Shown piece by piece: positions 14,584 to 22,351 of a stretch of DNA of 62,907 nt. Under the pieces are notes generated by a model. That model was not told the origin of the DNA. It worked only from the letters and a program-made list of their open reading frames with translations, and searched no databases. The stretch is from Spirobacillus cienkowskii (lineage in GTDB: Bacteria > Bdellovibrionota_B > Oligoflexia > Silvanigrellales > Silvanigrellaceae): assembly GCA_003339605.1 (NCBI GenBank), contig QOVW01000001.1, positions 1 through 62,907 of the forward strand, in the 5' to 3' direction. Every line of letters starts with the position of its first letter. Position 1 is the stretch's first letter. The position numbers and the translations under genes are program-made.

Positions 14584-14973
14584 TTAAAATAAAATAGACT
14601 TCTCATATTTAACAGCTTGATCTTTGTCGCATGTTAATAACTCACATTTATATTTGTCAGCTAATTTAACAAATAAAGAATCAGCACCTCTTGTTTTATA
14701 TTTATATATTGTATCCAAAACATCTTCATATCTATTATAACTTGTATGTATATTAATTAATGATTTTATTTCATTAATATGTTCATTTAATTGTTTTAAA
14801 TTTAAATTAAGAACCCTAACAAAATAAGAAGCAATTTCTATCAAAATAAAATCGGGGGCTATAAACTCACACATTGACTCGTAAAAATATTCTTCGCATT
14901 TTTTATGTTTAGGTTCAGTAGTAATCATTAAATTAATTAAGAAACTAGTATCAATAACAACTTTTAAAATCAT
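14584..14973 (-). CDS. vapC: VapC-type PIN-domain toxin
   Basis: 129 residues with PIN-domain acidic residues D8 (VVIDTSFL), E46 (DFILIEIAS), D98 (TRGADSLFVKLAD) and D116 (LLTCDKD). PIN toxins cleave tRNA or rRNA until neutralised by the antitoxin. The ATG overlaps the last base of the antitoxin stop codon, giving tight coupling. On a plasmid it acts as an addiction module. Confidence 0.88.
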   Translation of the reverse strand: MILKVVIDTSFLINLMITTEPKHKKCEEYFYESMCEFIAPDFILIEIASYFVRVLNLNLKQLNEHINEIKSLINIHTSYNRYEDVLDTIYKYKTRGADSLFVKLADKYKCELLTCDKDQAVKYEKSILF

Positions 14974-15263
14974 TAAAATCTTCTTTCTTTTTTAATAAAC
15001 TCTTCTGAAGTAACATCTTCTTTTTTAGATAAGTCAATATCTTTAAAGTGATTTAAAAATTTTTTTTTCTTTTCAAGTAGTTCTTTTTTTATAATTTTAT
15101 CATCTTTTTTGATTAAGTATAAATTCCCATCGCTGTCTGGTTTCACGATAAAAATTGCGCCTTTGGATATGTTAAACTTCTCTCTAATCTCTTGAGGTAG
15201 TCTTATAGATTCTCTTGAGTCAACTATTACTTCATATTTTTCTAAATTTTTAGCTGTATTCAT
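14973..15263 (-). CDS. vapB: VapB-type AbrB-fold antitoxin
   Basis: 96 residues. The AbrB/MazE swapped-hairpin motif is VIVDSRESIRLPQEIREKFN, followed by a Lys-rich C-terminal tail that would wrap the toxin. GGGAGG lies just before the ATG. On the - strand upstream, TTGACA and TAAAAT are spaced 17 bp within 15300-15345, so the pair has its own promoter, presumably autorepressed. Confidence 0.85.
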   Translation of the reverse strand: MNTAKNLEKYEVIVDSRESIRLPQEIREKFNISKGAIFIVKPDSDGNLYLIKKDDKIIKKELLEKKKKFLNHFKDIDLSKKEDVTSEEFIKKERRF

Positions 15264-15401: not shown

Positions 15402-15430
15402 TTGACACAGTCTAAGACTATCCCTATAAT
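15402..15430 (+). promoter_or_regulatory. Consensus sigma-70 promoter of the hairpin array
   Basis: TTGACA at 15402-15407 and TATAAT at 15425-15430 with exactly 17 bp between them: a perfect consensus promoter, unusual in this window. Transcription would start near 15437 and run straight into the five hairpin units. No protein gene lies downstream in this direction before the cas2-3 3' end. Confidence 0.85.
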
Positions 15431-15435
15431 ATAGT

Positions 15436-15673
15436 CTTATCCATTTATAATGGTTGAGAAAAATTATTTAGTTTTCTTTTAATAGTCTTGTCCGCTATTT
15501 AGGTGGTTGAAAAATTATGGATATTTATTAATGGTTTTATCCGCCTCCGGCGGTTGAGAAATTATGATTATAGGTATTTTTTATACTTTATCCGCTCCAT
15601 AAGCGGTTGAGAAATTATGGATATATATAAAACAAAGTAATTGTTTATTCCGCTGTAATAAGTGGCTGATTTT
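15436..15673 (+). CRISPR. Five-unit type I-F-like hairpin array, atypical spacers
   Basis: Five units at 15436-15461, 15487-15514, 15536-15561, 15587-15614 and 15645-15673. Each has 5 flank bases, a 5-bp stem around a 3-6 base loop, then a tail. The best, 15587-15614, is exactly 28 nt: TTTAT, CCGCT-CCATA-AGCGG, TTGAGAAA. Canonical I-F repeats have the same architecture and end CTAAGAAA. Stems covary between units (CCATT/AATGG, CCGCC/GGCGG, CCGCT/AGCGG, CCGCT/AGTGG). Intervening stretches are 25, 21, 25 and 30 bases instead of about 32, and most begin TTATG, so they are not ordinary independent spacers. The last unit is degenerate. Adjacent to cas2-3. Confidence 0.6.
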
Positions 15674-15694: not shown

Positions 15695-18600
15695 TTAAGT
15701 TTCCCGAATACCCAAACCTAATATAGGGTGATAATTAAGTTTTTTATTTTTCCAATAATATGGTACTTTTATTGATGCAAGTTTTTTTAATTTTTTAGAA
15801 TTGTCATCATCGTTTTTTTCTTTTAGTAATATTTTTTCTAATTCTTTTAATTCTAGGCTTAAATTATAGTCAATAAAAAAATTTCTTTTACTTTTTATAA
15901 CATTGTTATGCTCTATAATACTCATGGACACAGCAAAATCATTGTTATGAGTGGGTAAATTTGACTTAGTTTTTAATAACCATCTATCCCATTTTTTTTC
16001 ATTTAAATATGCAGGAAAGTACTCATCTTCAATTGCAAAATTATTGTTTCTAAATCTTGTTTTTATAAAAAAATTTTGTGTCAAACGATGTTTTTTATTT
16101 TTTATAAATTCTTCTAAACTATATTTATTCTTAAAATTTTTAAGCAAATGCTCTCTCAGCTCTATCAGTTCTACTGCGGTTAATGGAGAATCAAGATAAT
16201 TTTTTAATTCTAGCAAACAAAAACTCGAGTCAATTTTTTTGGCAACTTCAGCAAAGATTGCTTTTTCTGCATCTCGAATACGCGTAATTACAATATCTTT
16301 TTTTATTTCCAACTCAATTCCAGCATTTAATAATTGTTCTTCGACTTTTCTATATACTTCATAATCAATATTATCTTTTTTAGGATAATCAGCCTTTCGC
16401 AGTGCACGCCAACCAAAATGTGAAAACACCCCAAGTTTTGCATCCGTTTCTACGCCAGGATATGCCCAACTATTTGGTTTTTCTTTTTTGCTGTGACTCT
16501 CAAACCAAGTTTGCGAAGAAAATCTTAATATTCCTATGTTTGGTCCGGTTGGCAAACACTGAGGGCGATGCCGTAACACCCTTCCCGAAGCCTGCACAAT
16601 AGAACGGGTTGAGCACGGATCAAGAATTGTCCAATCGTAATCATGATCACGACCCGTTTCTTGAATACTTGTTGTAGAAACAAGCATCATCACATTTTTT
16701 GGAAAATCATTTTGTTCATACCATTTTTGAAATTCAGGAGAATTCAAAAGTATTTCTGGATCGTTGCAATTTTCAGATCTTTTTAAACCTTTATCTAAAA
16801 AGCTTTCGACACGTCTTCTATCAACAAAATTTAAATAACTATGATAACAAAACACTGCAATTTTTAACTCACTTTTTGATTTTTCTTCATCCATTAACCA
16901 TTTTGCAAAATCACGACAAATATGCGTGCGATTCCACCTGACAAAACCAATTGAAAATCTAAAAGAGTTGTTTTTTACCATATATGAATGTCTTAAATGC
17001 ATGCGCTCTGCGGCATTCAGCACAATGTTAAAATTTTCTTCCTCAAAATTTTTCTTATCTTTTACTTCAATAAATTCAGCATAATGTTTTTCTGGTGATT
17101 TTTTTAAATAATTGCAGTGATTTAATAAAAATTCATTGTAATATTTGTTAAATTCATCATTATTATTTATAGGCATTAATTTTGCAGAGCTGCATGAACT
17201 ATAATTACTACCTAAGCAGACAATTATATTTTGTTCATTGTTATTTTTTAAATTTCTATCTTTAACGCCATCTAAAAAAGCTTCATACAATTTTTGCACA
17301 ATAATATTTTGGACACTTGCAGACGATAACACAATATTTCTTCCGTAAAACCCCGTTAAGTAAACCAACCGACCAATACTTACCAAATCAGATGCTGCAA
17401 AAGAATCTATCTCATCAATTGCCAAATCCGAAGTCATCAAGCGCAATGCCATAAATGATTCACTGCCTCGTATAATTTCTGCGCCTGAAATTAAATGATC
17501 TATTGTTGCCACAACAATAGGTGTAGATAAAATTACTTCTTGGGTTTTATTTAAAAATGGGATGCTTTTATTATTACTTTTTCCACCAATTACAAAATTA
17601 GCGTCATCGAGTTCTGCTAAAAGCTGCGGAGAATTTGAGCTGCCATCTTGTGGATCATACATCAAATCATTATTTTCAGCTTGAGACTCCCAAATTTCTC
17701 GAGTTAAACGATCACCAACCACCACAGCAACGTCGGATTCATCATACAATTTTTTATATTCACTACCAGTTTTTAACGTTAAGCTTCGTAAACCTAATCC
17801 TAAAGAATATCTCAGTTTATGATCTTGTGCTGCGGCAGAACATGCTAAAGCAATGGCACGTGTTTTTCCACTTCCAGAAGATGAAGTCAACACACAAAAA
17901 ACTTGCGCAGATGCATTTTCTTTTTTTAATTGATCAATTTTATGATACACTTCATGCTGCCATAAAAATCGTGCATTCTCAGGTTTTGTAGATTTTAATG
18001 GCATTGCCGCAGAAAACGCTTCACTGTTTAAAAAAATGCTGTTAAAATAAACTTTAGTGTAATGCGCTACTTTATTTAAATGAACGTCTAAAGTGTCTGC
18101 ATAATATTTTTCATCATTTTGCAAAATTGTATTTGTAAAAATTGTAGAATTTAATGATAAAGAATCACCTAAAAATTTTTCTTTTTTTTCTGATCCCATG
18201 TAGTCAGAAATAATAAGAAGTGGTCTTAAATAATTTGGAACATAGGTATCAATAAAACTTTTATTATTTAAATTGTTTTGCAAATATTTTGCAATAAAAC
18301 CACATTCTTTTGCAACCAATGCACACCAAGATTGCGTTCCTGTATTATCCCAAGGTTTTTTACCTTCTTTTAATGTTAAAAAATTTAAAAATTCTTCAAG
18401 CAACTCTTTTTCTAAAATTTTTGAAGAGTCAACAAATTCTGCACGCCAAAAGTTTTTAACACCAGAGCAAACTCGCAAATCTTTTGCTTCTGGTAATTTG
18501 TGATGAGTGAGCACAAGCCATAAAACATATTCAATAACTTTTGATTGATGAGAATTACTCAATAAAAAGTTACTAAATTGTGGCCAAGGATCACGAATTG

Positions 18601-19228
18601 CTGTTTTGCAATACTTATTTAAACTACTTTTAATAATATTAAGATAATTATCGGAATTTTCAGAAAAACATTTGTGCACATTCTCTTCGTTTGATAGTTG
18701 CTGAAATATAAAATTATCATCCATATTATTTTTTATAATACCATAAATAATTAAACATGATACAAGCTCATGTCGAACCACATCTTTTTTAATTTTATAG
18801 TTACCGTTTTTAGAAAGTGCGTTATTGAGCTTTTCTTGAAAGCCAACTGTTGCCTGGCCAAGATCATGGAATAAAGCAGACAATTTTAAAATAGAAAGCA
18901 AAAACTGCTCTTCATCTGATTTAAAATACAATTCCACTTCATGCTGCATTTTTGTTATAGAATAACTGTATTCACCATTTTCATTATAATGTATTTTATT
19001 TCCAACATGAAAAAGAAGTTTTATATCATTATATTTATCAATTTTGTAACAAGTAATTGCTGTTTTTTTACTTGAATTTTTTATAAGTAAATCGCGAAAA
19101 TCTTGTAATTCCTCATCAGATATATTACCGATCCATGTACGTCTAGCAATTTGTTTTAATTTTGACAAATTTTTTTTCGTGTCAGGTAATGAATCTTTGG
19201 TGCATTCGCTCACGCACAAAATTAACAT
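15695..19228 (-). CDS. cas3f: Type I-F Cas2-3 fusion (helicase-nuclease)
   Basis: 1177 residues. The first about 95 match the Cas2-like domain of I-F Cas2-3 (ILCVSECTKDSLPDTKK, ARRTWIG, KKTAITCYKI). HD nuclease: H121-D122 in LFHDLGQATVGFQ, H153 in RHELVS, HH in VLTHHKLP; the usual Lys of HDxGK is Gln125. Superfamily 2 helicase: Walker A SSSGSGKT near 450, the family block LGLGLRSLTLKTG, DEID near 604, LSSAS, and motif VI QASGRVLRHRP near 882. Length fits the family and no frameshift is seen. It normally degrades DNA marked by the Csy complex and partners Cas1; neither Cas1 nor Csy1-3 is encoded here. Ribosome site AAGGAGAT. Confidence 0.92.
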   Translation of the reverse strand: MLILCVSECTKDSLPDTKKNLSKLKQIARRTWIGNISDEELQDFRDLLIKNSSKKTAITCYKIDKYNDIKLLFHVGNKIHYNENGEYSYSITKMQHEVELYFKSDEEQFLLSILKLSALFHDLGQATVGFQEKLNNALSKNGNYKIKKDVVRHELVSCLIIYGIIKNNMDDNFIFQQLSNEENVHKCFSENSDNYLNIIKSSLNKYCKTAIRDPWPQFSNFLLSNSHQSKVIEYVLWLVLTHHKLPEAKDLRVCSGVKNFWRAEFVDSSKILEKELLEEFLNFLTLKEGKKPWDNTGTQSWCALVAKECGFIAKYLQNNLNNKSFIDTYVPNYLRPLLIISDYMGSEKKEKFLGDSLSLNSTIFTNTILQNDEKYYADTLDVHLNKVAHYTKVYFNSIFLNSEAFSAAMPLKSTKPENARFLWQHEVYHKIDQLKKENASAQVFCVLTSSSGSGKTRAIALACSAAAQDHKLRYSLGLGLRSLTLKTGSEYKKLYDESDVAVVVGDRLTREIWESQAENNDLMYDPQDGSSNSPQLLAELDDANFVIGGKSNNKSIPFLNKTQEVILSTPIVVATIDHLISGAEIIRGSESFMALRLMTSDLAIDEIDSFAASDLVSIGRLVYLTGFYGRNIVLSSASVQNIIVQKLYEAFLDGVKDRNLKNNNEQNIIVCLGSNYSSCSSAKLMPINNNDEFNKYYNEFLLNHCNYLKKSPEKHYAEFIEVKDKKNFEEENFNIVLNAAERMHLRHSYMVKNNSFRFSIGFVRWNRTHICRDFAKWLMDEEKSKSELKIAVFCYHSYLNFVDRRRVESFLDKGLKRSENCNDPEILLNSPEFQKWYEQNDFPKNVMMLVSTTSIQETGRDHDYDWTILDPCSTRSIVQASGRVLRHRPQCLPTGPNIGILRFSSQTWFESHSKKEKPNSWAYPGVETDAKLGVFSHFGWRALRKADYPKKDNIDYEVYRKVEEQLLNAGIELEIKKDIVITRIRDAEKAIFAEVAKKIDSSFCLLELKNYLDSPLTAVELIELREHLLKNFKNKYSLEEFIKNKKHRLTQNFFIKTRFRNNNFAIEDEYFPAYLNEKKWDRWLLKTKSNLPTHNNDFAVSMSIIEHNNVIKSKRNFFIDYNLSLELKELEKILLKEKNDDDNSKKLKKLASIKVPYYWKNKKLNYHPILGLGIRET

Positions 19229-19265: not shown

Positions 19266-19529
19266 TTAATTTTTATTTTTCGATATTTTTCGCAAGAAAT
19301 CCTCTTTATTCCATGTATAATATGCCTTAAATTTTTTGTTTATTACTGTGTATTTAATTTCCGCGCAATATTTTTGCATTAAAAAACGAACTGTTGATTT
19401 TGTTTTTTCTGATAATTTTACGAGTTCTTCTGTAGAGTACACTTGATTATTTAAATCAAATAACCAATCAGATGGCGGACGACCCATTTTTCCATTATTT
19501 CTTCCCAGATTTTTTTTCTTTTTTTCCAT
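19266..19529 (-). CDS. Small GRP/helix-turn-helix protein in the cas operon
   Basis: 87 residues. A basic AT-hook-like start (KMGRPPSDWLFDLNN) is followed by a helix-turn-helix candidate (YSTEELVKLSEKTKSTVRFL) and an aromatic tail. It resembles the protein at 55141-55443 (RGRKLSQW...YSMKDLQ), so the two are paralogues. It lies between the 183-residue gene and cas2-3 with short spacers, and may regulate the operon or bind DNA. No family name known to me. Confidence 0.6.
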   Translation of the reverse strand: MEKKKKNLGRNNGKMGRPPSDWLFDLNNQVYSTEELVKLSEKTKSTVRFLMQKYCAEIKYTVINKKFKAYYTWNKEDFLRKISKNKN

Positions 19530-19540
19530 GAAACTAGCCT

Positions 19541-20092
19541 TTATTTTTTAATATTTTTGTATAGTTCACAAAATTTTGAGAGTGCAGCAAATTTTGCGTT
19601 AGCGCAATTTGTAAATTTTTGGAATGAGTCATCTTCTTTGCAATAATCAATATTATACTCTTCAAGTAACTCAATAAAGTCATTAGAATTATGAACCTGT
19701 TTATTTAATTCATCAAGAGCAGATTCTAAAAAATTATCTTTTAATTCATGATACGGCTTTTTTGAGTATTGTTCACATAAAAAATCATACGCATATTGTT
19801 TATCAAATTCTAGCAAACTTTGCTTAATAGAAAGAGGAACTTTACTATATAGATATGGCAAATTATCAATTGTGTTCAAAAGCCATTTCAGCATATTATC
19901 TCGATCATTTATTAAAATAAGCTCTCCCAAATCTCCCGTTAAAAAAACATGATTTTTTATAAAAGTTAATCTAAAATAATAATAAAAACTATCTGGATTT
20001 TTACACACAAAAGTTTTAGAATTTTCATGATCGCATTCGACTGTTAATATATGATTCTCAAAACACTTTATAATATCAATATTATTGCTCAT
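19541..20092 (-). CDS. Phage protein of unknown function in the cas operon
   Basis: 183 residues. The segment FYYYFRLTFIKNHVFLTGDL followed by GELIL resembles a motif I know from uncharacterised phage proteins (aromatic, R-hydrophobic, then TGDxG). The C-terminal part is acidic and helical with Cys residues. It sits 31 bp downstream of cas6f and 11 bp upstream of the small GRP/HTH gene, with an AAGGAAG ribosome site, so it is cotranscribed with the Cas genes. It is not a recognisable Csy protein. Confidence 0.6.
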   Translation of the reverse strand: MSNNIDIIKCFENHILTVECDHENSKTFVCKNPDSFYYYFRLTFIKNHVFLTGDLGELILINDRDNMLKWLLNTIDNLPYLYSKVPLSIKQSLLEFDKQYAYDFLCEQYSKKPYHELKDNFLESALDELNKQVHNSNDFIELLEEYNIDYCKEDDSFQKFTNCANAKFAALSKFCELYKNIKK

Positions 20093-20123
20093 TCTTTATC
20101 TTCCTTTTTTAAATTTTTAATCC

Positions 20124-20711
20124 TTAAAAATGCGGAACGCCCAAACCTTTAGGTGCAAGACCATAACCTGAAAATTTTAATTCTTCTTGGGAATTAAAAT
20201 CAATTTCTGCTAGTTCTCGTGCAATAAAAAGCGTATAATTTCCTAAGTATATAGTATGAATATCCTTTTTTTGCACGATACTTTCGATTGATTTTTTAAG
20301 CTTTTCTCTGTCAAAAGGGAGATTTTTTCGAGTAGCTCTTCTTTTCATCCTATCTAAATAATTGGGGCTTAGTTTTTCCGTTACGCGATCTCTGTAAAAT
20401 CTATAATAAGTATTTACATCATCCGGCACTAAATCAATATTGCTTATTTCAATTAAATTACGATCTGAAAAATTTTTTAATAATTCCGCATTTCGCATGA
20501 ATAATAAAACTCCCCAATCATTTTCATTTGCAAAAAAACGGATTGAATTTCCAATGTTTTTTTCGTTCCAATTTGGAAATGAAACCGCAATTTTTCCTTC
20601 AGATTGATTGATAGTATTGAAAAAAAACTTAAAAATATTTCTAATATCTACATTGTTTTTAAAATCTGGAAGCATAAATATTTTAATTTCAAAATAACAA
20701 TCTAAAAACAT
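20124..20711 (-). CDS. cas6f: Cas6f (Csy4)-like protein, catalytic residues apparently lost
   Basis: 195 residues, the family length (about 187). Matching features: KIAVSFP at 40-46 (IGVSFP in Csy4), the Arg-rich helix SPNYLDRMKRRATRK at 115-129 that holds the repeat hairpin, and the C-terminal SGYGLAPKGLGVPHF (YGLSKGGFVPWF in Csy4). By hand alignment the catalytic histidine (Csy4 His29) falls in KFFFN, with no His. The loop carrying Csy4 Ser148 is shortened to IYLGNY, with no Ser. It may therefore bind but not cut the hairpins; nearby residues could substitute. Csy4 normally cleaves pre-crRNA at the base of the stem. Confidence 0.8.
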   Translation of the reverse strand: MFLDCYFEIKIFMLPDFKNNVDIRNIFKFFFNTINQSEGKIAVSFPNWNEKNIGNSIRFFANENDWGVLLFMRNAELLKNFSDRNLIEISNIDLVPDDVNTYYRFYRDRVTEKLSPNYLDRMKRRATRKNLPFDREKLKKSIESIVQKKDIHTIYLGNYTLFIARELAEIDFNSQEELKFSGYGLAPKGLGVPHF

Positions 20712-20804
20712 ACTTTTTCCTTTTTTAATTAACTTTAAAATTAAAATTTAGTGATAATTGCTAATTCTTGGGATCTGTTTACAAACCCCAATTAAAATAT
20801 TTAA

Positions 20805-21827
20805 TTACAACTCTTTATTAAAATTTCTATAATTATCATCAATCATTTTTCGTAAATTTTGTTTGATATAATTACAACGTTTTTCATCATTATTAAAATC
20901 AGAGCATTGCATTCTATAAGCAAAAGGTTCTATTAAATTAGAATCAGAATATGCGCTTATTAATTCAGAAAAATCTGAAAATAATTTATCATCATTATCA
21001 ACTGCTGCTGCTATGAAAACTTTTTTAATATTTTCGTCATCTTCAGATTCTAAAAAATCTTTAAAAGCGGTTTCGTAGTCTCTAATTAAATTGCTTAGAT
21101 CTTTTTCTACTAAATTAGATAAAGATGGAAAAATAATTTTAAAATCCCAGTAATTAAATTCATGAACACTAAAAAGACGTTCTAAATTGTAAAAGTCTTC
21201 ACTTCTTTTATTTGTTTCTAGATCTAATTCGTTTTGCGACAAACAATAGTGCTTATTTTTAAAATCACATTTATCTTCAAGTTTTTTTCGTTTTTCAAAT
21301 TCATAATAATCAACTATAATGCATTCCTTTTTATCAATATTAATAAAAAAATTAATATATTCAAATTCATAAGACCATTTTTCTGGGTTTTCATGATTAA
21401 ATGAATCAAAATATGCGTTATTTTCTCTTTGTATTCTTAAAAATAAAGACTCTGCGTAAGCTAAAGGTTTCATTATTTCTTGATAATCTTTGACCAATAA
21501 ATTTGCAATTTTTTGACATTTATCTAAATGTTCTTTAGATTTTGGATCAAAATTAATTTGTAAATTTTCTGATTCTAAATCGTCTTCATTTTTAAAATTT
21601 AATTCAGACAATTTATGTTGCATTAAAAAATTTACTTCTTCTAAAACTTTTTTTGAGTCAACTATTTCTCCAAAATCTGAATTGATACTATTTATAAAAT
21701 CATCTTGACGCTCTGCTTCGCTATAATAATTAGATAATACATCGTAAACAATTTCGTCTGATAATTCCAAAAAATCTTTCTCTATAAATTTTAAATCGTT
21801 AGATGGGTTTTTTATCAAAATTTCCAT
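20805..21827 (-). CDS. Acidic protein at the head of the cas operon, unknown function
   Basis: 340 residues, strikingly rich in Asp and Glu throughout with few Arg, mostly helical by composition and with no signal peptide. It shows none of the RNA-binding or Gly-rich features of Cas7/Csy3, nor the Csy1/Csy2 patterns. Such acidity is common in DNA-mimic and anti-defence proteins, or it could bind the basic Cas6f. AAAGGAATT ribosome site; second gene of the operon starting at 22.5 kb. No family recognised. Confidence 0.55.
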   Translation of the reverse strand: MEILIKNPSNDLKFIEKDFLELSDEIVYDVLSNYYSEAERQDDFINSINSDFGEIVDSKKVLEEVNFLMQHKLSELNFKNEDDLESENLQINFDPKSKEHLDKCQKIANLLVKDYQEIMKPLAYAESLFLRIQRENNAYFDSFNHENPEKWSYEFEYINFFINIDKKECIIVDYYEFEKRKKLEDKCDFKNKHYCLSQNELDLETNKRSEDFYNLERLFSVHEFNYWDFKIIFPSLSNLVEKDLSNLIRDYETAFKDFLESEDDENIKKVFIAAAVDNDDKLFSDFSELISAYSDSNLIEPFAYRMQCSDFNNDEKRCNYIKQNLRKMIDDNYRNFNKEL

Positions 21828-21922
21828 AATTTAATTCCTTTATTATATAATTTTTTAATTAATTATTTCTATATTTTATACAAAACTTAAAAATATACAA
21901 AATTCACCCTAAAATTTGGGCA

Positions 21923-22351
21923 TTATTTTAATTTATAGAAATCTAAGATATGTTGAATTTCATTTTTATCAACTTTGTACTTATTTTTAATATATTTAAT
22001 CACGCTTTTCTTTAAATCTTTACCATTATTTTTATAAAAATCATTGATATTATTATCTACATCTTTTGGAATTATGTAGTAATTTAAACCTTCTTTTATT
22101 AAAGCAACATCATAATCTTCTGAACATAATTGTCCTTCGTCGTTCATTGACCAACCTTGAAAGAATGTAAACATTGCTACTAAATTTGAATTTGCTAATT
22201 TTGGAGCAGACGTAAAATTTGCGATTGGTGTTACGTATACAATATTACTGGGATTATCAACTTTATTTTTTATATAAATCAAAACTTCTGGAACAGAGTT
22301 AATTTCAAGAATTGCACAACGTGAAGCTTCAACATTATTTAAACTAATCAT
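21923..22351 (-). CDS. First gene of the cas operon, unknown function
   Basis: 142 residues, alpha/beta composition, no signal or membrane segment. The C-terminal 45 residues are Lys-rich helices (SVIKYIKNKYKVDKNEIQHI). No family recognised. Its AAAGGGG ribosome site and a leader of roughly 137 bases follow a promoter at 22495-22523, so it is the first translated product of the Cas2-3/Cas6f operon. Confidence 0.55.
   Translation of the reverse strand: MISLNNVEASRCAILEINSVPEVLIYIKNKVDNPSNIVYVTPIANFTSAPKLANSNLVAMFTFFQGWSMNDEGQLCSEDYDVALIKEGLNYYIIPKDVDNNINDFYKNNGKDLKKSVIKYIKNKYKVDKNEIQHILDFYKLK

Follow-up and report, generated by a model that had tools for sequence, protein, structure and literature searches.

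A phage-borne array of I-F-type hairpins with conserved guides that may turn the host Csy complex on its own operon

The hairpin array and its phage context

The window, by which we mean the whole stretch of 62,907 nucleotides analysed here, makes up contig C62 of the assembly G000 and carries recognisable phage genes (terminase, portal and tail) beside genes for ParA-like and ParB-like proteins and a tyrosine recombinase. The same assembly contains a chromosomal csy1-4 operon on contig C97 (L002), and G051 denotes a sister genome from this species. The assembly is the basis for placing the window phage in one cell with the C97 chromosome; the link between phage and host is independently supported by a guide shared with the host array (H5, see below), by near-identical cas2-3 genes and by G051 spacers against the phage.

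The array occupies positions 15402-15673 on the plus strand. The initial annotation had described a perfect promoter, and the sigma-70-like TTGACA-17-TATAAT element at 15402-15430 indeed matches the consensus at 12 of 12 positions. Behind it, five hairpin units alternate with four guides: U1 (15436-15461, 26 nt, stem CCATT/AATGG, tail TTGAGAAA), guide 1 (15462-15486), U2 (15487-15514, 28 nt, CCGCT/GGTGG, tail TTGAAAAA), guide 2 (15515-15535), U3 (15536-15561, 26 nt, CCGCC/GGCGG, tail TTGAGAAA), guide 3 (15562-15586), U4 (15587-15614, 28 nt, CCGCT/AGCGG, tail TTGAGAAA), guide 4 (15615-15644) and U5 (15645-15673, 29 nt), a degenerate last repeat in which a CCGCT/AGTGG hairpin is followed by a run of T. 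A 5-bp stem with two outer C-G pairs is present in all five units, and paired (double) changes are found at stem pairs 3, 4 and 5 (GC/AT, CG/TA and TA/CG), in agreement with the compensatory changes proposed earlier. Four units folded better than most shuffled sequences (z -1.9 to -3.1), with unit 2 being less clear (z -1.4). Of the earlier description as five exact I-F units, the five hairpins and their 5-bp stems stand; the exactness does not, as the loops vary from 3 to 6 nt and U5 has no GAGAAA tail. U5 is also the sole terminator-like site of the region and may terminate the array. The array shares its C-G, C-G stem base and its TTGAGAAA tail with the repeats of the host and with the creR-like element of G051 described below. 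The spacers are as first reported: they measure 25, 21, 25 and 30 nt, are AT-rich, and three of the four start with TTATG. A search of the window against Rfam gave no match.

Divergent from the array promoter lies a pair of genes for a MazE/AbrB-like antitoxin and a PIN toxin (14584-15263), with a promoter-like site of its own (15334-15306). On the other side of the array, the minus strand encodes Cas2-3 (Cas3f; 15695-19228) and a Cas6f (Csy4) homologue (20124-20711), and no csy1-3 were recognised among the neighbours of these two genes. The cas2-3 gene shares about 90% DNA identity with the chromosomal cas2-3 of G051, and the low dN/dS between the two (0.15) suggests that the phage Cas2-3 is a maintained protein; it possesses the motif HDxGQ in place of HDxGK and is the sole Cas3f copy of the assembly G000. 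A search for Cas3f in phage records detected just relatives of about 25-30%, e.g. in ICP1. The Cas6f homologue, which is 42% identical to the host Csy4, has Phe at the column of the catalytic His, lacks the Ser-Ser/Thr loop and keeps the C-terminal Tyr. The catalytic alteration noticed at the outset was thus confirmed, and with the His and the Ser loop lost, the protein probably binds without cutting. Its structure model is poor (pLDDT 63), with Csy4 proteins as best matches, and no relatives were found in phage records and viral contigs. By analogy with Cas-homologue anti-CRISPRs, the dead Cas6f could itself act as an inhibitor. The region 19266-22351, in one line with cas6f and cas2-3 of the phage, encodes four proteins (87, 183, 340 and 142 aa) with no convincing family match, which are candidates for anti-CRISPR or accessory proteins. 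Guide 1 also matches 10 nt within the cas6f gene of the phage (minus strand, 20363), which was attributed to chance.

Guide families and their six-nucleotide periodicity

A scan of IMG/VR viral contigs revealed arrays of the same kind in L031 and in L025/L028, the latter two carrying an identical array. No detectable protein is shared between the window and the fetched stretches of L031 and L025/L028, nor were any cas genes noticed in that of L031. Further scans of viral contigs with the guide cores gave no more arrays. Weak DNA hits to the array region in G051 and G055 (L033-L035) were dismissed as AT-rich chance.

Three guide families recur in the window, L031 and L025/L028, in reshuffled order; L031 and L025 are 89-97% alike in their flanks, yet their arrays read A-B-C and C-B-A, respectively. 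Guide 1 of the window belongs to family B (AATTA.TTAGT.TTCTT), which L031 and L025/L028 have as well, with changes at 6, 12 and 18 alone. Guide 2 belongs to family C (TTATG.ATAT[TA].ATTAA) and guide 3 to family A (TTATG.TTATA.GTATT.), while guide 4 is a looser, C-like member differing also at positions 15 and 18. The earlier view that the spacers are not captured protospacers was upheld.

The start of each guide was fixed by the 8-nt I-F handle and not fitted. Within the first 18 nt, the window and L031 differ seven times, each time at position 6, 12 or 18 (the hypergeometric p values multiply to approximately 5e-7, a figure to be read with the caveat that the families were first recognised by eye). 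Over all three arrays, the variable positions in this stretch are 6, 12 and 18 in families A and B, and 6, 11 and 12 in family C. In the type I-F complex, every sixth crRNA base is flipped out of the crRNA-DNA duplex. The guides vary almost solely at these flipped-out positions, which argues for selection for DNA pairing by the Csy complex.

The promoter of the L025/L028 array contains the sequence CC-TTATTAATATAATTTAG (listed with L031:8605-8625), which resembles a target of family C: apart from a mismatch at position 5, it agrees with guide 2 of the window at 11 of the 15 positions that pair. It may reflect self-limitation of the array or chance, both being possible.

The host I-F loci and the csy1 leader

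The host I-F locus, the spacer that it shares with the phage array and the sister phages had not been seen in the initial annotation. The C97 operon encodes, in this order, Cas8f/Csy1, Cas5f/Csy2, Csy3 and Csy4, followed by five repeats (ATTAACCACCGCATAGGTGGCTGAGAAA) with spacers of 30-33 nt. The last spacer, H5 (TTATGATTATAGGTATTTTCACTAG...), is a member of family A and is identical over 19 nt to guide 3 of the window (TTATGATTATAGGTATTTTTTATAC). Neither an I-F cas1 nor a cas2-3 other than the phage copy was found in G000, the host locus having lost both and kept csy1-4. The assembly also holds a Cas9-type system on contig C95 (L010:7119-12179), with Cas1, Cas2 and a 1121-aa Cas9-like protein, the parts other than Cas1 being recognised by eye.

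In the G000 leader, CC-TTATGAATATAAGTATT is located approximately 220 bp upstream of csy1 (L002:7232-7250). H5 and guide 3 match this site at 14 of the 15 Csy pairing positions, with a mismatch at position 7, a score reached by none of 3000 shuffles; guide 4 matches at 12 of 15 (19 of 3000 shuffles). The scores of guide 2 (10/15; 379 of 3000 shuffles) and of the family B guide 1 (8/15) are no better than chance. The degenerate target pattern CCTTATGNWTATANGTATT has a single occurrence in eight genomes of the genus, at this very site, and a wider genome search found no csy operon with the target in other genomes; 95 genome-wide hits of the pattern, none near csy genes, were taken as chance. So was a CC-flanked, perfect seed of family A at G000:C3:46226, around which the 3-kb locus has no complete long ORF, and which probably lies inside a large gene. 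For family B, no target was found in either G000 or G051.

The pairing rules of the Acinetobacter I-F CreA (20-nt guide, CC PAM; positions 2-5, 7-9 and 13-17 essential; 10, 12, 19 and 20 free; PMC10097628) agree with the conserved and free guide positions in the phage arrays. At the essential positions, none of the window guides fits the G000 allele fully: mismatches occur at 7 in guide 3 and H5, at 13, 16 and 17 in guide 4, and at 13, 15, 16 and 17 in guide 2. Judged by CreA, position 7 would disable guide 3, and the third segment would disable guides 2 and 4. Three explanations are conceivable: the G000 sequence is an escape allele, pairing of lesser strength is enough, or the guides are in truth directed at leaders of other strains. 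Between the target site and csy1 there is a very hydrophobic 34-aa ORF with a Shine-Dalgarno sequence (L002:7327-7431; MKKELIWVYIIFFIFIIYIFFVKIDKFVFAINIK), for which no Pfam match was obtained.

The I-F locus of G051 consists of csy1-4, 25 repeats, cas1 and a frameshifted cas2-3, and ends with the same H5 unit. The two genomes are 92-99% identical on both sides of the csy1 leader, but the leaders themselves have unrelated sequences, and that of G051 does not match any window guide. Upstream of csy1 the G051 leader contains a creR-like element (L018:15713-15956), in which two degenerate Csy4-type repeats surround a 26-nt AT-rich spacer (TTTATACTTTAACTTTTTATTTTTAT); the first 17 nt of the spacer perfectly match a CC-PAM site between the element and csy1 (0/3000 shuffles). 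This element is built like the phage units and suggests that the I-F system uses control of the CreR type. The exchange of leaders between G000 and G051 would fit an arms race. Spacers of G051 match the window at 1774-1806 (33/33, CC PAM), 30414 (32/33) and 13573 (28/32). The protospacer of G051 spacer 17 (15632-15663, minus strand, CC PAM; first 16 nt perfect) overlaps U5, and a related phage with the same hairpin and another spacer was probably once captured.

Proposed function and comparison with known systems

We consider it probable that the array provides phage-borne guides of the CreR/CreA kind, which repress the csy operon by means of the Csy complex borrowed from the host. Among the options named in the initial annotation, an array with fixed guides is the one favoured by the evidence. 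A single transcript would start from the promoter at 15402-15430 and be cut at the hairpins by the active Csy4 of the host; the phage copy of Cas6f looks cleavage-dead. The resulting short crRNAs would be taken up by Csy1-3 of the host and form approximately 17 nt of duplex with CC-flanked DNA, each sixth base being flipped out. Families A and C would probably be directed at the csy leader of the host; the Csy complex would then repress its own operon, CRISPR immunity would be lowered and the phage favoured. We also lean, with somewhat less assurance, towards a broader proposal, that of a new class of RNA anti-CRISPRs: banks of guides copied from CreR-type repressors of the host, covering several promoter alleles, with csy leaders being replaced or mutated to escape.

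The same guide and target facts would also be expected from a mimic of a CreA/CrePA-type antitoxin, where the csy leader drives a small toxin silenced by H5, and the phage guides keep this toxin silent while CRISPR is disturbed in another way, by the dead Cas6f. The 34-aa hydrophobic ORF with its Shine-Dalgarno sequence is placed between the target site and csy1, and the Acinetobacter I-F CreTA is similarly laid out, with a mini-ORF downstream of the CreA site and before csy1 (PMC10097628). However, the ORF lacks a Pfam match and is absent from the G051 leader, which has a creR-like guide instead, and a functional Csy complex would still be required; we regard this explanation as unlikely. Still less credence is given to a decoy of the Racr type, with hairpins titrating the host Csy4 and Cas7f into dead-end complexes irrespective of guide sequence. 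Its own promoter, the repeat-like hairpins and the phage location are all as expected for a decoy, several hairpins would make a strong sponge, and a precedent is RacrIF1, a substrate of Cas6f processing that prevents Cascade from assembling (PMC10651486). A decoy, however, predicts that guides drift freely, whereas these are conserved but for every sixth base and match the csy leader. The decoy or scaffold with irrelevant guides put forward in the initial annotation is accordingly not supported as the main function, given the conservation of the guides at the Csy pairing positions and the match of families A and C to the csy1 leader; a decoy effect could exist in addition to the guide function.

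Viral mini-CRISPR arrays are known (PMC6858448, PMC11656645), and the sole Cas3f of the assembly is phage-encoded, so one could imagine an array directed through the host Csy complex against rival phages or plasmids, the phage supplying the Cas3 that its host is missing. But only about 17-18 nt are conserved within the 21-30 nt spacers, families A and C point to csy, and among the matches listed, those in viral contigs flanked by CC are at chance level (1/119 for family A, 5/120 for family B), which makes this a decidedly improbable reading. The least probable is that the host Csy complex regulates the phage's own genes through the array. Regulation by borrowed Cas proteins has precedents in CreA and CreR, but of the 15 positions that pair, CC-flanked matches cover at most 12 in the window and at most 11 in the stretches of the other phages.

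Autorepression of host CRISPR systems by CreR RNAs and decoy repeats of phages (Racrs) are already known, and work by Shmakov in 2023 reportedly also deals with cas-regulating RNAs. In the literature, including those parts of the main CreR papers that were covered, we found no report of a phage-borne CreR array or of phage guides against a cas operon leader. If repression of the csy operon by phage guides is true, anti-CRISPR action could consist in the immune complex itself silencing transcription under the guidance of RNA, and the phage would turn the self-restraint of the immune system against that system; it would also suggest a reason for the complete difference in csy leaders among strains that are otherwise near-identical. 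Conserved guides varying only at every sixth base would be a signature for regulatory CRISPR RNAs in phages, and searches for solitary repeats discard such arrays.

CreR (Liu 2023, Cell Host Microbe), as described in PMC12737573 and PMC13131331, combines a degenerate repeat with a short guide that has a PAM and partial complementarity to a cas leader, Cascade being the repressor. The window array likewise joins degenerate repeats to short, PAM-flanked partial matches in the leader of a cas operon, at 14/15 positions for family A and 12/15 for guide 4, albeit imperfectly at the essential positions. In contrast to CreR, which belongs to the host and is encoded with the cas operon that it controls, the array resides on a phage contig with its likely target on another, and its single transcript would combine four guides from three families. 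The CreR types named in the review are I-B, I-E and V-A, whereas the array is of type I-F. The latter it shares with the Acinetobacter CreA, together with the CC PAM, the 20-nt guide, the free positions 6 and 12 and, in CreA, two degenerate repeats of the Csy4 type (PMC10097628); CreA, however, is chromosomal and represses a toxin gene, while the phage-borne array has the csy leader as likely target. Cas-homologue anti-CRISPRs (Katz et al., as described in PMC13131331) offer a further parallel, since the window phage also carries homologues of Cas subunits, one with its active site lost, in a putative role of this kind.

Racrs resemble the array in being phage-encoded, with their own promoter and Csy4-type hairpins, but are solitary repeats trapping Cas6f and Cas7f, in contrast to five units with conserved targeting guides (PMC10651486); a phage repeat behind a promoter is present here, while the five units are at odds with a solitary repeat, and the six-nucleotide periodicity of the conserved guides with an irrelevant guide. 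Viral mini-CRISPR arrays, similarly located on a virus and dependent on host Cas proteins (PMC6858448, PMC11656645), have repeats identical to those of the host and spacers mostly against related viruses, whereas the window has degenerate repeats, short spacers and the host csy leader as likely target. Instead of the identical repeats and spacers of about 32 nt that define a canonical I-F array or a viral mini-array, its repeats differ from one another and its spacers measure 21-30 nt. By class, the array would be a phage-borne counterpart of CreR/CreA guides, and is neither a Racr, which is defined by a solitary repeat, nor an ordinary CRISPR array.
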